In this document: piece after piece, positions 28,267 through 33,075 of the stretch
Position numbering within the stretch: position 1 is the stretch's first letter
Layout of the letters: each line of letters begins with the position of its first letter
NCBI GenBank assembly: GCA_945893365.1
Contig: CAMDED010000083.1
Span: 1 to 33,186, forward strand
Length of the DNA: 33,186 bases
From: Candidatus Sulfopaludibacter sp. SbA3
Lineage (GTDB): Bacteria > Acidobacteriota > Terriglobia > Bryobacterales > Bryobacteraceae
Direction of reading: 5' to 3'
Notes under the pieces: model-generated
The model's database searches: none
Told to the model about the DNA's origin: nothing
The model's input: only the letters and a program-made list of their open reading frames with translations
Made by a program: the position numbers and the translations under genes

Positions 28267-28300
28267 GCATGGCTGTAATGCTGTAATAAGGAGCCTCTCG

Positions 28301-28786
28301 ATGCCGGAAGTCGTTTATCGCTCTCGGGTCAGGATCGAGCGGGTAAAAGGCCCGGTTCGCAAGGCATATCTTCCCGCCGAACCCGAACCCGTCATATTCG
28401 GAGTCCACAGCGAGATCGCAGGCTATTACAAGGTCCCCGCGGGCGCTTTTCCTCCCCACGCAACCACCCTCGATTACATCGTCGCCAGCACCGCCGGTTG
28501 ACTCGCCGGAACCTTTGGAGGCGCGCTGGAGGCGCGTCAAATCAGCGCTTCGGAAGGCCGGCTCGTGGCCGAAGCCATCGGTGAGATTGAGACCGAGGAG
28601 GGCGTTCTGGTGATTCGCAGAATTCACGTGCGGCTGGTTCTGAAGGCGGCTCCGGAGCATCGGGCGACGGCGGAACGCGTGCATGGAATTTTTGCGGACC
28701 GGTGCCCGGTTTACCGCACGCTGAGGGCATCGATTGCCATCACGACAGAGCTCGTAGTGGATGAAAATCGTCCACTTGGTGGATGA
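28301..28786 (+). CDS. OsmC-family selenoprotein, Sec encoded by TGA at 28499-28501
   Basis: 161 aa when the internal TGA is read through. Ahead of the TGA is TTLDYIVASTAG; after it, in the same frame, comes LAGTFGGALEARQIS. OsmC/Ohr-like peroxidases have a catalytic Cys in exactly this place (ATAGCLxGTFGGALEAR), so codon 67 replaces the peroxidatic Cys with selenocysteine. The resolving Cys135 is intact in DRCPVYRTLRASIAITTEL, and the frame from 28502 to 28783 has no further stop. A well-formed hairpin 25 nt downstream of the TGA fits a bacterial SECIS. AAGGAG (28288-28293) lies 7 bases before the ATG. Sec-containing OsmC-like proteins are known from metagenome surveys. Such enzymes reduce organic hydroperoxides. 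Standard gene calling would give a false 66-residue protein and a fragment from 28565. A nonsense pseudogene is the alternative; selA/selB/selC/selD are not in the window. Confidence 0.82.
28514..28541 (+). promoter_or_regulatory. Candidate bSECIS element downstream of the Sec codon
   Basis: The RNA folds as a 6-bp upper stem, 28521-28526 (GCGCGC) with 28532-28537 (GCGCGU, one G-U pair). The apical loop is UGGAG (28527-28531), and two G residues sit at its second and third positions. A 4-bp lower stem (UUUG 28514-28517 with CAAA 28538-28541) and a 3-base bulge (GAG, 28518-28520) complete it. The loop starts 25 nt after the UGA, within the range used for bacterial SECIS prediction. Coding and structure coincide, as expected, because the bSECIS lies inside the gene. 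Confidence 0.72.
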
Positions 28787-28844
28787 AAATCATCCACTTG
28801 GTGGTTGAAAATCATCCACTTGGTGGTTGAAATTCATCCACTTG
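28757..28844 (+). repeat. Four contiguous 22-bp repeats, each an imperfect palindrome
   Basis: Units start at 28757, 28779, 28801 and 28823 with no spacers. Each is a near-palindrome of the form GTGGATGA-AAA-TCATCCAC followed by TTG; units 3 and 4 have GTGGTTGA in the left arm, and unit 4 has TT for the second central A. The first unit and part of the second are also the last codons and stop of the OsmC-like gene. The array ends 18 bases before the ATG of the DUF4143 ATPase at 28863. Spacing of 22 bp would place the four sites on the same face of the helix, so an operator or binding array for that gene is plausible. It is not a CRISPR because there are no spacers. Confidence 0.85.
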
Positions 28845-28862
28845 GCGTGGTAGATTCGGTTC

Positions 28863-30182
28863 ATGATCGTCCGCGCCCTAGCTGCAAACGTCCGCGAGGC
28901 GATGACCGATACGCCTGTCGTTTTGATCAACGGCGCGCGTCAAACGGGCAAGAGCACGCTCGCGCGAAGCATCGCCGGGGAGCGCGGCGTGTCCAATTAC
29001 TACACCTTCGACGACCAGGTGGCGCTCAAGGCGGCGCTCGACGATCCCGAGGGTTTCCTGTCCGGCCTGATGCGTCCCGTGGTTCTCGACGAGGTTCAGC
29101 GCACGCCGGATCTGTTCGTGGCGATCAAGGCGGCCGTTGACCGCGACCGCAAGCCCGGCAGCTTTCTGCTTACAGGCTCGGCCGATATCCTCCTGCTTCC
29201 GAGGCTCTCCGATTCCCTGGCCGGGCGCATGGAGATTATTACGCTGTGGCCGCTTTCCCAGAGTGAGATCGAGGGCGCGGCATTGGCGACACAGGCTCCA
29301 TCAATAATAGATGCGCTGTTCGACGGGCCGGTCCCCGCATTCGCGAATCCCGCGCCGCACCGGGAGGCCGTCATCCAGCGCATCCTCCGCGGCGGATACC
29401 CTACGCTGCTCGGCCGCCCCGCGGACGCACGCCGAAACGCCTGGTTCGACTCCTACATCACGACCATCGTGCAGCGCGACGTGCGGGACATGGCGGATAT
29501 CGACGGGCTGACCGAAATGCCGCGGCTTCTCGCCACGCTTGCCGCGAACGCGAGTTCTCTGCTGAATTTCGCCGGACTCTCGCGGGATCTCGGGATTCCT
29601 CAGACCACGCTGAGGCGCTATCTGACGATATTGCAGACCACATTTCTGGTCCAGCTTCTGCCCGCATGGTCCACGAACCTCACGAGCCGTATTGTAAAGG
29701 CGCCAAAGCTGGTTTTGGGCGATACGGGGCTGATTGCGTATCTGACCGGCATGAACGCCTCCGGCCTGGGCGGGGCCCTGCCCATCGGCTCGCTTGTGGA
29801 GAATTTCGCCGTGATGGAACTGCGCAAACTCGCGGCATGGAGCCGGACGCGGCCGAAGCTATTCCATTTCAGGCTCCATACGGGGCCGGAGGTGGATATC
29901 GTCCTCGAGGACCGCGCGGGGAATATTGTTGGCGTCGAGGTCAAAGCCAGCGCCAGCGTAGATGGTTCGGATTTCAAAGGTCTCCGCATCTTGGCGGAGG
30001 CTGCGGGACGGCGGTTCCGTCGCGGGGTCGTTCTGTATACGGGAGGGCAGACGGTGCCGTTCGCGGCGAACCTCCACGCCCTGCCGATGGAGGCGTTGTG
30101 GAGCGCTCCTCCGAGCGCCGGGAAACCGGTTTCCGTTTCGAAACCAAAGCGCGCCGCTTCCGCGGATCGCGCGAGGAAGTAA
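28863..30182 (+). CDS. ATP-binding protein with AAA_14 and DUF4143 domains
   Basis: 439 aa. Walker A is GARQTGKST (residues 24-32); Walker B is RPVVLDEVQRTPD (Asp76-Glu77). LLTGSADILLL follows as a sensor-like strand. The C-terminal DUF4143 part has the restriction-endonuclease-like pattern Asp345 ... Glu359-x-Lys361 in GPEVDIVLEDRAG and VGVEVKAS. Members of this family are abundant, often single genes acquired horizontally, and their function is not settled. The four palindromic repeats directly upstream are the only visible regulatory sequence; no Shine-Dalgarno of good quality is seen within 12 bases of the ATG. Base composition and codon use look like the surroundings. It is followed by a 150-base gap. 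Confidence 0.88.
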   Translation: MIVRALAANVREAMTDTPVVLINGARQTGKSTLARSIAGERGVSNYYTFDDQVALKAALDDPEGFLSGLMRPVVLDEVQRTPDLFVAIKAAVDRDRKPGSFLLTGSADILLLPRLSDSLAGRMEIITLWPLSQSEIEGAALATQAPSIIDALFDGPVPAFANPAPHREAVIQRILRGGYPTLLGRPADARRNAWFDSYITTIVQRDVRDMADIDGLTEMPRLLATLAANASSLLNFAGLSRDLGIPQTTLRRYLTILQTTFLVQLLPAWSTNLTSRIVKAPKLVLGDTGLIAYLTGMNASGLGGALPIGSLVENFAVMELRKLAAWSRTRPKLFHFRLHTGPEVDIVLEDRAGNIVGVEVKASASVDGSDFKGLRILAEAAGRRFRRGVVLYTGGQTVPFAANLHALPMEALWSAPPSAGKPVSVSKPKRAASADRARK

Positions 30183-30332: not shown

Positions 30333-32027
30333 TCACGAATCGAATCGACGCAGGATCTCTGAAGCCGAATACAAGGCCAGCACCTTCTTCGCGCGCCGCA
30401 CCGCCGGCAGTCTCAACCATTTGAGATTCCAATATAGAGTACAGGCAAAGTAATGTATCCCCTTTGTGTCCTCAACCGAAACCTGCTTCGCCTTCTTCCT
30501 CACCATCCCAATCAGCCGATAGGCCCTCAAAATCGACTTATTCCCGGTTCCCAACCTATCGGCCGAATCGGGATCGAAATCCAGACCCTCGCCCAGCGCG
30601 TGAGACTCCACTCGACACCACTCCGGAATCTGAGATGAATCGATATCTCCGAATCCCGGATGGTCCGCTTCGGTCCCCATTAAGACCAGCTTGATATCGC
30701 ATTCCAACTGCGCCAGGTCGAAAACGAGGAGTCCGTCTTCGCGATAGTCTCCGCAATCGATAATGCGCACATTCGAGGGATCGCCTGGCGAGACTAGACA
30801 GTTCCTCGAGTTTGGGTCGCCATGAATGTGGCCTCTCGCCACTGGACAGTTACGTTTCAACCACGCAGGATATGCGTCGAGGAGGAGCGCCCGGATCCGA
30901 GCCTCCCGGTCGGGCCAAGGAGTCCGCGGGTCCTTCTCCCAAGTGGCGTTCGAACTAAGGTGGAGTCCATACCGCCTAAGATCGTCCAGCGCGTGCAAGA
31001 CGACCGAAGTGCGCCCGTCGTCCCGAAAGAAGTTCCGCTTGCCGCTGTCGGCAATAGGGGTAGTGTGCACCGGCGCGGATCCGTGATTCCCCCTGCCCAG
31101 AATGTTCAGAACCTCGCGGTAGGCCTCCCAAACAAATGAATCGCCCTTCGTTCGGTAGAGGGTCTTGAGGGTTTCCCGTGGACTCGCATAGTTGGAGGCG
31201 GACTCGTAGCAGATCGGATAGAGTGTGCGGTACGGAGCGCCTGGTCCCCCCGCTGGTTGGCGCAGAGCGCGCTGCGGAAACGCTTCCAGTTGAGCCGAAA
31301 GGCGCGGGCCCAGTCCGCCGACGGGTACAATGCCAACCGTGTGAGGATCGAGCCATCCCTTCGCGCGCAGATGAGCCTCGTACTCGTGCTCGAACTTTCC
31401 TCTATCGTCGAAGAATTTGAGGAAATAGTCATTGCTATCTCCATCAACCGACAAGCGGAACAAGGGAACGCCCGACCAGCCTTCGCCCAGGTATTCGATA
31501 GCCGTACCACTGGCGCCGGGAAAATACTTTTGAATGGTGAGCGGGAGTAGTTTCGGGTGCATCTCCCTCAGGATCTGCGCGCAAAGCACGTCTTTTGGGT
31601 CGGGCCGAAAGATATCGTCGTTCGGCTCCAGCAGGTGAACCCCCAACTGTTTCAGTACCTCCCCGACCTCCGAATCCTCAGCCAATTGCGCAAAGGTCCG
31701 TACCTGACATTCCTTATGCGCCTGGCGAAACTCCTCTATCGCTTCCCTGACCTCCGGGCCGGGAATCGTAATCAAGATCGGCAGGGACGCCCTTGCGCCG
31801 TGGGCCGTTTTGCAGATCGACTCGGCAGTCAAGGCGGTGTCCGGCGACCACTGCACTATCAGCGCATCCGCGGACGCGGTAGCAGATTGAAAGGTCTCGG
31901 CGCTGACGTAGGTCCATCGCGAAAGGGCCGTCTCAGTCCAAGCCCAGGCCGACCACTTTTCGAACCGCGGCCTCTGCCCGCCATCCGGGCTGCTATCGAC
32001 AAAGAGAATCCGCCGAATGTCAGCCAT
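30333..32027 (-). CDS. Receiver-like plus APH/kinase-like phosphotransferase protein
   Basis: 564 aa from the ATG at 32027, supported by GGAGG 5 bases upstream; an upstream in-frame ATG at 32048 also exists. Residues 1-115 resemble a degenerate response-regulator receiver domain (RRILFVDSSPDGG, SADALIVQWSP). After a linker (YLGEGWSGVPLFRLSVDG, a possible phosphate loop) comes an APH/choline-kinase-like catalytic centre: His402-Gly-Asp404-Pro-Asn-Ser-Arg-Asn409 and RIIDCGDYREDG, with the metal-binding Asp at about 424. A final ~100 residues (FACTLYWNLKWLRLPAVRRAKKVLALY) are helical. This layout recalls TCAD9-type phosphotransferases of bacterial ternary conflict systems, but that match is from memory. 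It overlaps the upstream sigma-54-type activator gene by 8 bases, so both are probably one transcript. The substrate is unknown. Confidence 0.72.
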   Translation of the reverse strand: MADIRRILFVDSSPDGGQRPRFEKWSAWAWTETALSRWTYVSAETFQSATASADALIVQWSPDTALTAESICKTAHGARASLPILITIPGPEVREAIEEFRQAHKECQVRTFAQLAEDSEVGEVLKQLGVHLLEPNDDIFRPDPKDVLCAQILREMHPKLLPLTIQKYFPGASGTAIEYLGEGWSGVPLFRLSVDGDSNDYFLKFFDDRGKFEHEYEAHLRAKGWLDPHTVGIVPVGGLGPRLSAQLEAFPQRALRQPAGGPGAPYRTLYPICYESASNYASPRETLKTLYRTKGDSFVWEAYREVLNILGRGNHGSAPVHTTPIADSGKRNFFRDDGRTSVVLHALDDLRRYGLHLSSNATWEKDPRTPWPDREARIRALLLDAYPAWLKRNCPVARGHIHGDPNSRNCLVSPGDPSNVRIIDCGDYREDGLLVFDLAQLECDIKLVLMGTEADHPGFGDIDSSQIPEWCRVESHALGEGLDFDPDSADRLGTGNKSILRAYRLIGMVRKKAKQVSVEDTKGIHYFACTLYWNLKWLRLPAVRRAKKVLALYSASEILRRFDS

Positions 32028-33075
32028 CTTCTCCTCCATCCCGCGCATTCTTGAGTCTGGTTGCGAATGTCTTTCGATCGATTTGGCCCTCGTCGGCCGC
32101 GCTCGATTGATTTCCGTTGTTCTTGATCAGAAGCTCTTCGAGGTAAATCTTGTCCACTGCGCGCAGCGCCGCTTCGCGGGCCCCGGCGTATCCAAGCTCG
32201 CCGGGGATCTCCAAACGAAGCAGCTTCTTTGCGGCCGGCCGCGTGATCTCGGCCGGCAGGTGCTTCGGCAGGATCATTGAGCCGGGATAACACGACGACA
32301 ATGCCGAGACGATGGCATTTTCCACCTGCCTCACGTTCATCGGATAATCGAAGCGCTCCAGCATTTCTCTCGCGCTAGGGCTCAAAGCCACCGCTCGTCC
32401 CCTCGAATGCTTATCCAGAAAGTGGCGTAGCAGGAGTAGAACGTCGCCAGGCCGGTCGCGCACGGCGGGCATCACGATGCGCAACTGATTGACGCGAGCC
32501 AACAGGTCCGGGCGAAATGCGTTGGAGGCGGCTGCGTCGTCGAGATCCACCGAGGTTGCGCACACCAGTCGTGCCCGCAAAGGAACGGCGACTGTCCCGC
32601 CGACGCGATAGAACTCACGCTGCTCGATCGCTCGCAGCAACTTCGCCTGGAGGGACAACGCCATGTCCCCAATCTCGTCGAGAAGAAGAGTTCCCGCCCC
32701 CACCGCCTCAAACTGGCCGTGATGTACGCGGTCGGCTCCGGTGAACGATCCCCTTTCGTGTCCGAAGAGTTCGTTCTCCAGACGGTTGCCGTCCAGGTTG
32801 GCGCAGTTCACTGCCACGAAGCGTTCCGAGGACCGATGACTAAGAGCGTGAACCGAGCGAGCTATCATCTCCTTCCCGGTACCCGTTTCTCCGAGGAGGA
32901 GCAGGTTAGCTTCCGACTGCGCCGCCTTGGTCAACTCATTGACGCAACGGACGAATCGCGCACTACCGCCCACCAGCGAAGTCTGCCGCAGTTCGGTGAA
33001 TCTAACGCGGTCGAGAAAGTCCCGCGCCGAAATTTCGCCTAACAGCCCGTGGTAGAAGTGGCAGGAAAAGAACAC
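32020..33075 (-). CDS. Sigma-54-type AAA+ transcriptional activator without receiver domain
   Basis: 351 aa. AAA+ motifs are Walker A GETGTGKE (62-69), the sigma-54-contact loop GSFTGA (109-114) in GHERGSFTGA, Walker B GTLLLDEIGDM (Asp133-Glu134), and the arginine-finger region FRPDLLARVNQLRI. DYPMNVRQVENAI matches the NVREL box. A basic C-terminal segment with NNGNQSSAADEGQIDRKTF is a Fis-like helix-turn-helix. Only about 35 residues precede the AAA+ domain, so there is no classical receiver, GAF or PAS input domain. Control might come from the receiver-like partner encoded next. The GTG at 33075 is the first in-frame start after a stop, so the start could be further downstream. The gene is divergent from the partial gene at 33119. 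Confidence 0.88.
   Translation of the reverse strand: MFFSCHFYHGLLGEISARDFLDRVRFTELRQTSLVGGSARFVRCVNELTKAAQSEANLLLLGETGTGKEMIARSVHALSHRSSERFVAVNCANLDGNRLENELFGHERGSFTGADRVHHGQFEAVGAGTLLLDEIGDMALSLQAKLLRAIEQREFYRVGGTVAVPLRARLVCATSVDLDDAAASNAFRPDLLARVNQLRIVMPAVRDRPGDVLLLLRHFLDKHSRGRAVALSPSAREMLERFDYPMNVRQVENAIVSALSSCYPGSMILPKHLPAEITRPAAKKLLRLEIPGELGYAGAREAALRAVDKIYLEELLIKNNGNQSSAADEGQIDRKTFATRLKNARDGGEDG

Follow-up and report, generated by a model that had tools for sequence, protein, structure and literature searches.

OsmC-like selenoproteins with the motif UxxT were described from three Sargasso Sea sequences (PMC1088965), and the corresponding GOS family contains five Sec and 161 Cys homologues with the same motif (PMC2398784); for most GOS selenoprotein families, the same source reports that Cys versions far outnumber the Sec ones. 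Two reviews (PMC9312934; PMC13188914, Table 1) list the OsmC-like selenoprotein as a single UxxT entry, and the second of these, from 2026, treats different Sec motifs within one domain architecture as separate subfamilies. For Ohr, Arg19 and Glu51 contact the thiolate of the peroxidatic Cys (Cp), a disulfide forms between Cp and the resolving Cys (Cr), and lipoylated proteins serve as the reductant (PMC5962072). In the literature accessible to us, in which subscription journals are little covered, we found no OsmC/Ohr selenoprotein beyond the UxxT entry.

Here we describe a gene, sec-osmC, which lies in a 33,186-nt stretch of DNA from Candidatus Sulfopaludibacter sp. SbA3 (the whole of which we call the window). 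We consider it very probable that sec-osmC encodes a genuine selenoprotein with Sec at codon 67, because the TGA is kept in relatives and the SECIS hairpin is constrained and covarying. The features of the locus are as follows.

28288..28293, forward strand: AAGGAG, a Shine-Dalgarno-like sequence 5′ of the ATG (from the sequence)
28301..28786, forward strand: sec-osmC, a predicted OsmC-fold selenoprotein gene with Sec67, stop TGA included (from the frame, PF02566 and an AlphaFold2 model)
28358..28360, forward strand: codon of Arg20, a candidate catalytic Arg of the Ohr/OsmC type (invariant in 54/54 rows of alignment A3; role by analogy with Ohr, PMC5962072)
28499..28501, forward strand: UGA predicted to encode Sec in place of the peroxidatic Cys, Cp (TGA in 80/80 loci; aligns with the first Cys of 1ukk)
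28520..28538, forward strand: SECIS hairpin of bacterial type, 8 bp, within the GALEAR codons (silent-site constraint, compensatory codon changes)
28703..28705, forward strand: TGC codon of the resolving Cys135 (invariant in 54/54 rows of alignment A3)
28757..28845, forward strand: four 22-bp repeat copies overlapping the 3′ end of sec-osmC (from sequence comparison)

The frame runs on the forward strand from the ATG at 28301 to the TGA at 28784-28786 and encodes 161 residues, with the TGA at 28499-28501 (codon 67) as its sole internal stop. The initial annotation had proposed this single-TGA frame, a Shine-Dalgarno sequence, an OsmC identity for the joined 161 residues, a TGA at the position of the peroxidatic Cys, and an intact resolving Cys135. 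The frame was borne out on re-reading and AAGGAG does precede the ATG, while Pfam, the predicted fold and the structural neighbours agree on OsmC; the UGA residue aligns with the first Cys of the OsmC structure 1ukk, and Cys135 with the second. The window protein scores 47 bits against the Pfam OsmC family (PF02566; gathering score 27.5), and the best match in PDB profile searches is OsmC of Thermus thermophilus, 1ukk (E 1e-4 with A1, 0.006 with A3). A model predicted by AlphaFold2 from 54 family sequences has a mean pLDDT of 96. Its best solved neighbours by Foldseek are OsmC/Ohr structures, with VIA Z values of 14.7 to 2onf, 13.3 to 1ukk and 12.9 to E. coli OsmC (1nye); the closest of these, 2onf, is an uncharacterised OsmC-like structure.

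The subfamily motif is U-x-x-G-T, and the resolving Cys is part of a C-P pair in nearly all members. Five further residues (Arg20, His36, Tyr43, Thr56 and Asp58) are invariant in all rows of alignment A3, which holds 54 of the usable sequences. Of these, Arg20 is a candidate for the Arg19 of Ohr, and Asp58, nine residues before Sec67, is a candidate for its Glu51, both correspondences being proposed by analogy with Ohr.

The TGA recurs at the same codon in a wide set of relatives. Matches by tblastn occur in 23 of 61 genomes (the host and 60 relatives), and TGA is kept in 20 of the 23, in relatives that reach down to 32% identity; two genomes (G038, G040) show two TGAs, the second of which is the gene's own stop. 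The three matching genomes with no stop at the site are G011, which is described below, and G049 and G059, whose matches were judged from their translations to be other OsmC-type proteins and not family members. Searching 396 genomes of the host's phylum, host included, with a family profile (A1) yields 34 matches at E<1e-18, spread over 33 genomes; 33 of these matches carry exactly one TGA, and the remaining one (G137) is a contig-edge fragment that begins after the site. In the phylum of a Chloroflexi bin (L140), with 301 genomes counting that of L140 itself, one TGA is present in each of the 29 matches at E<1e-30. Weaker matches in the two scans are the 22 listed for the host's phylum (E 3e-9 or worse), none of which has a stop, and 12 for the L140 phylum, with TGA in one (a fragment of G719) and none in 11; we take those without TGA, 22 and 11 respectively, to belong to other OsmC families or to be fragmentary or broken copies.

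Profile A2 was built from the region 3′ of the UGA alone and run over named genomes; because it excludes the Sec site, this search pattern could not favour TGA. It counted 369 relatives, and the codon is TGA in 80/80 named loci when the best 80 of the 369 are considered, these being the most like a Sec query and the other 289 lying outside the count. All of these TGA-conservation samples consist of the closest relatives of a Sec query, and so are biased towards close relatives. In the alignment of relatives, the protein is conserved on both sides of codon 67. The suggestion that the TGA is no chance mutation agrees with its persistence down to 32% identity and in the 80 named loci, and the search for Sec homologues in related genomes, which had been recommended, finds TGA at the same codon in many of them. 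Among viral contigs, 80 stretches match a pattern and none of them encodes a relative; tblastn of plasmids with the window protein (P0001) gave no match.

A separate observation concerns genome G587, which is outside the 29 TGA matches of the L140-phylum scan. Here, copies on two contigs (L198, L199) are broken just upstream of the TGA by one shared sequence. The insert is about 2 kb in the one contig showing both ends, with GTAGTGGGT/ACCCACTAC at the insert ends, and, read by eye, it resembles an insertion element that has entered a Sec gene.

Downstream of the UGA, the window contains the hairpin GGCGCGCT-GGA-GGCGCGTC (28520-28538), with eight pairs and a GGA loop that starts 26 nt after the UGA. 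The bacterial SECIS model given in PMC13188914 accommodates this distance, and the hairpin (8 bp, loop GGA, 26 nt) fits the published model. Since the hairpin overlaps codons for G-A-L-E-A-R, its conservation as RNA has to be distinguished from that of the protein. In the 80 distinct sequences, the hairpin codons are GGC or GGT for Gly, GCG for the first Ala and CTG for Leu in 80/80 cases each, and the second Ala codon is GCG in 78/80, the other two being GCC and Val GTG. Outside the hairpin in the same genes, GCG makes up 37.7% of Ala codons (likewise 38% as background for the second Ala) and CTG 41.1% of Leu codons. The hairpin Arg codon is CGC in 50 of the 80, CGT in 27 and CGA, which breaks a pair, in 3; CGG occurs in none, against a background of 33.7% of Arg codons.

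A wider SECIS set comprises 130 distinct genes from 132 entries, which share ancestry, so that counts within it are not independent events. The loop position of the main register is G in 130/130, and at least seven of the eight pairs form in that register in 118/130. In seven genes an Ala GCA of the 5′ arm faces a Val GTG of the 3′ arm, and in three the two codons have changed places, with Val GTG 5′ and Ala GCA 3′; pairing is restored in both configurations. In three others, Val GTG in the 3′ arm faces a 5′ GCG and a G-U is kept. Three more GCA..GTG genes are found beyond the 130-gene set. Thus the RNA pairing is repaired where the protein sequence encoded by the hairpin changes. Loci L080, L081, L082, L195 and L196 are not among the 130 genes; taken separately, each of them carries the TGA and a 7-8 bp hairpin.

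Folding energy by itself discriminates little. The window hairpin has a z of -0.87, with 20% of synonymous versions equally stable, and the median z across genes is -1.09, with 96% below zero; in DNA as rich in GC as this, energy is not a reliable guide. Because of these weak z-scores, we added a synonymous-codon hairpin test, in which any register fitting the published model as coded was allowed and synonymous versions were drawn with the codon usage of the family. An uninterrupted stem of at least seven pairs is present in 127/130 genes versus 22% of synonymous versions, one of at least five pairs in 130/130 versus 75%, and one of at least eight pairs in 63/130 versus 7%.

In a distant group (L017, L018, L020, L025, L026 and L028), the main hairpin is lost and a substitute hairpin occurs instead. 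That of L017 is CTGTCAGG-GGC-CCTGGCAG, whose loop starts 20 nt downstream of the UGA. The SECIS of this group is therefore 6 nt nearer to the UGA and in other codons, which basically depicts a natural migration of a SECIS within a gene.

The components for which a search of the host genome had been recommended (selA, selB, selD and tRNA-Sec) are all present in it (7.88 Mb, 299 contigs, 96.65% complete). Neither of the findings that had been named as speaking against Sec was made: selB and selC are not absent, and close relatives with TGT/TGC did not occur together with other damage in this copy. There is one tRNA-Sec(UCA), at 71.2 bits, which ARAGORN calls SeC(tca); the other RF01852 matches of the host reach at most 50.5 bits, and ARAGORN identifies the highest-scoring one as a tRNA-Ser. 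SelA scores 492 bits, SelB 381 bits (cut-off 242) and SelD 370 bits. The explanation of the TGA as a Sec codon, as given in the initial annotation, is thus supported by the machinery together with the conservation of the TGA and the silent-site constraint on the SECIS. The host SelD gene (L049, G000:C81:892-1815) has an in-frame TGA of its own (AAGUASKLGP), followed by an 8-bp SECIS-like hairpin with a GGT loop 20 nt downstream, so that the host probably produces one or more further selenoproteins.

At a cut-off of E 1e-10 or better, tRNA-Sec is found in 236/396 genomes of the phylum, namely in 31/33 with a family member versus 205/363 without one (Fisher p = 8e-6); the two member genomes in which it was not confidently found are G176 and G312. 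Of the 20 TGA genomes among the 61, 19 have a tRNA-Sec of at least 69 bits, the exception being G037 (81% complete), and in a set of 15 named genomes it scores at least 59.9 bits in 14, with none confident in G466 (L086). Assembly gaps are a possible cause of the missing tRNA-Sec in these four genomes.

Based on record titles and tree grouping, members of the subfamily occur in Acidobacteriota, Chloroflexota, Gemmatimonadota, Myxococcota, Thermodesulfobacteriota and Poribacteria, and further in Actinomycetota, Nitrospirota, Nitrospinota and Thermomicrobiota, plus one KSB1 bin. Nearly all of them come from metagenome bins, so odd single placements may reflect mis-binning. The nearest named orthologues of sec-osmC are in bins titled Acidobacteria and Bryobacterales, in keeping with a host that is an uncultured acidobacterium. 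The tree contains 84 rows; L106, in which the frame is broken 27 codons past the UGA, and L131, which has no stop, runs to 705 residues and is taken for a chance open frame, were left out of both the protein alignment and the tree. L131 is the TGA copy in a record titled Anaeromyxobacter soli strain SG29, whose genome (G454) has a tRNA-Sec.

The sole Cys member found is G011, from the host family, which has TGT at the Sec site and is missing a portion of its N-terminal region. The tree places G011 inside a 22-row clade (starred in the tree) whose other rows are Sec (support 100/95), although its branch is long (1.88) and the placement is therefore unsure. Its codon in the SECIS loop is CTC, versus CTG in 130/130 Sec genes. 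A gene that had exchanged Sec for Cys, and whose SECIS had then decayed, would look like this, although it is a single case. The Cys homologues aligned at the UGA are G011, with TGT, and OsmC 1ukk, with Cys. Sec is probably ancestral in the subfamily and has rarely been replaced by Cys.

The 3′ end of sec-osmC has a feature that the initial annotation overlooked, a 22-bp tandem repeat: the last nine codons and the stop come from four tandem copies of GTGGATGAAAATCATCCACTTG (28757-28845). This repeat pattern is unique to the site in the host genome at up to 3 mismatches, and a congener (G001/L083) has a diverged set of 22-bp repeats at the same place. Directly after the repeats is an AAA_14/DUF4143 ATPase gene (28863-30182), and the same gene starts after the L083 repeats. 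Further along, on the reverse strand at 30333-32045, is a gene whose 570-residue product weakly matches TCAD9 (39 bits versus a cut-off of 40) and APH phosphotransferase; it adjoins a gene for a protein with a sigma-54 activator domain. Upstream, sec-osmC comes after genes for ATP-synthase I, a and c, which have little bearing on function.

We also surveyed neighbours by clustering ORFs of at least 80 residues around 81 loci. No neighbour is conserved across the 81, and the largest ORF cluster spans 7 loci. A gene with AhpC/TSA and DsbD_N domains (Pfam on L090 only) lies upstream in 7/81 loci, at most 53 nt away in six of them and always in bins titled Acidobacteria or Bryobacterales; it lends weak support to a peroxidase role. 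Another neighbour cluster, which comes chiefly from loci of Chloroflexi, encodes an ABC permease.

The function that we consider likeliest for sec-osmC, and probably correct, is the reduction of organic hydroperoxides, with the peroxidase step argued by analogy from the fold and two residues. From sequence and comparison, UGA 67 is very probably decoded as selenocysteine by tRNA-Sec and SelB, guided by the hairpin 26 nt downstream. The following steps are modelled on the Cys-based Ohr/OsmC mechanism. The selenolate of Sec67 would most likely attack an organic hydroperoxide to give a selenenic acid, which Cys135 would resolve to a selenenyl sulfide, and this would then be reduced by a thiol donor, e.g., a lipoylated protein or thioredoxin. 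Arg20, and perhaps Asp58, would take the roles of the Ohr Arg and Glu. Compared with a Cys at the Cp position, Sec67 may be faster and less prone to over-oxidation.

Four other explanations bear on different parts of this picture. The TGA could be a nonsense mutation or sequencing error at the catalytic Cys codon of an otherwise normal OsmC, as might be expected from a single stop in a draft genome of 299 contigs, in a gene whose 3′ end has been altered by tandem repeats. This is almost certainly not so, given that TGA is found in 80/80 named loci, and also in relatives only 32% identical, that the protein is conserved on both sides of codon 67, and that the one Cys copy, G011, is on a long branch inside a Sec clade. 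It is also very improbable that UGA 67 is read as another residue, such as Trp or Cys, by a near-cognate or suppressor tRNA. An open frame does not by itself identify the residue, and tRNA-Sec was not detected in 2/33 member genomes of the phylum, but it is present in the other 31, the UGA is at the catalytic chalcogen position, and a SECIS-type hairpin is under selection; in addition, TGA also terminates sec-osmC and so is not a sense codon throughout, which counts against such a readthrough. A less remote alternative, though still an unlikely one, is a selenoprotein with no peroxidase role, for instance in thiol/selenol transfer or persulfide handling on an OsmC fold. OsmC-fold proteins are functionally diverse, the predicted model is closest to the uncharacterised 2onf, and the gene has no widely conserved neighbour. 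Against this, both redox positions and the invariant N-terminal Arg are kept, and an AhpC/TSA + DsbD_N gene lies upstream in 7/81 loci.

The remaining alternative concerns classification: sec-osmC might be a plain member of the published OsmC-like selenoprotein family (Sargasso Sea UxxT; NF041052), with which it shares the Pfam domain and Sec at the peroxidatic position. We consider this quite unlikely. The NCBIfam model NF041052 (OsmC-related (seleno)protein) has a cut-off of 95 bits; at E 0.01 the window protein is not among its matches, and scores of 17.0 and 18.3 bits were obtained for two other Sec members. The score of the window protein against TIGR03562 (OsmC family peroxiredoxin) is 16.4 bits, below the cut-off of 85.8, and the members tested reach no model in NCBIfam release 20. 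Gly at +3 and Thr at +4 after Sec are found in 80/80 distinct sequences, in contrast to the U-L-L-T of the NF041052 member L163. Both kinds coexist in one genome (G435), which holds L163 (NF041052, 169.6 bits, TGA, FULLT) and L054, of the present subfamily (U-L-T-G-T). From L163 (ULLT) as the one member, we infer that NF041052 corresponds to the published UxxT family. By the rule of PMC13188914, U-x-x-G-T versus UxxT makes a second OsmC subfamily. We therefore think it likely that the sec-osmC subfamily, set apart by the described motif and the NF041052 model, is separate from the catalogued UxxT one. It is probably also uncatalogued, being absent from the 2026 review table and reaching, in the members tested, no NCBIfam 20 model. 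The initial annotation had referred the gene to a known but rare OsmC-like class; the OsmC-like selenoprotein part of this stands, and the rare UxxT part gives way to what is, as far as tested, apparently a separate and widespread subfamily.

Taken as a whole, the picture that we favour, with some reserve, is of a subfamily of OsmC selenoproteins that is absent from the catalogues and reaches across about ten bacterial phyla. Sec would be ancestral in it and in effect obligatory; codon changes would have rebuilt the SECIS and, in one group, shifted it by 6 nt within the coding sequence with Sec staying in place, and the product would be a Sec-dependent organic-hydroperoxide reductase. If this is true, the subfamily would rank among the commoner bacterial selenoenzymes. 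Since ordinary gene callers are expected to truncate or divide the gene, and the tested members reach no NCBIfam 20 model, it has probably been missed or truncated in many environmental genomes, with 369 relatives counted in the named-genome scan. The near absence of Cys versions among the relatives found raises the question of why selenium cannot be given up, and the sec-osmC genes constitute a natural series for the evolution of a SECIS inside coding sequence.

Compared with the known systems, sec-osmC is similar to the Sargasso/GOS UxxT kind and NF041052 in its OsmC domain, Sec at the peroxidatic position, a bacterial SECIS (as reported for that kind) and a predicted role as a redox enzyme. 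The UxxT kind is mostly Cys in GOS, whereas the sec-osmC subfamily has UxxGT and is nearly always Sec among the relatives found. With OsmC (E. coli 1nye, T. thermophilus 1ukk), sec-osmC shares the predicted fold and the two redox positions, but OsmC has Cys rather than Sec as Cp, and the identity is 12-15%. The likeness to Ohr consists of the predicted fold (Z up to 13.4), Cp and Cr, and an invariant N-terminal Arg; where Ohr has a Cp Cys and Glu51, sec-osmC has Sec and, as a candidate for the Glu, Asp58.
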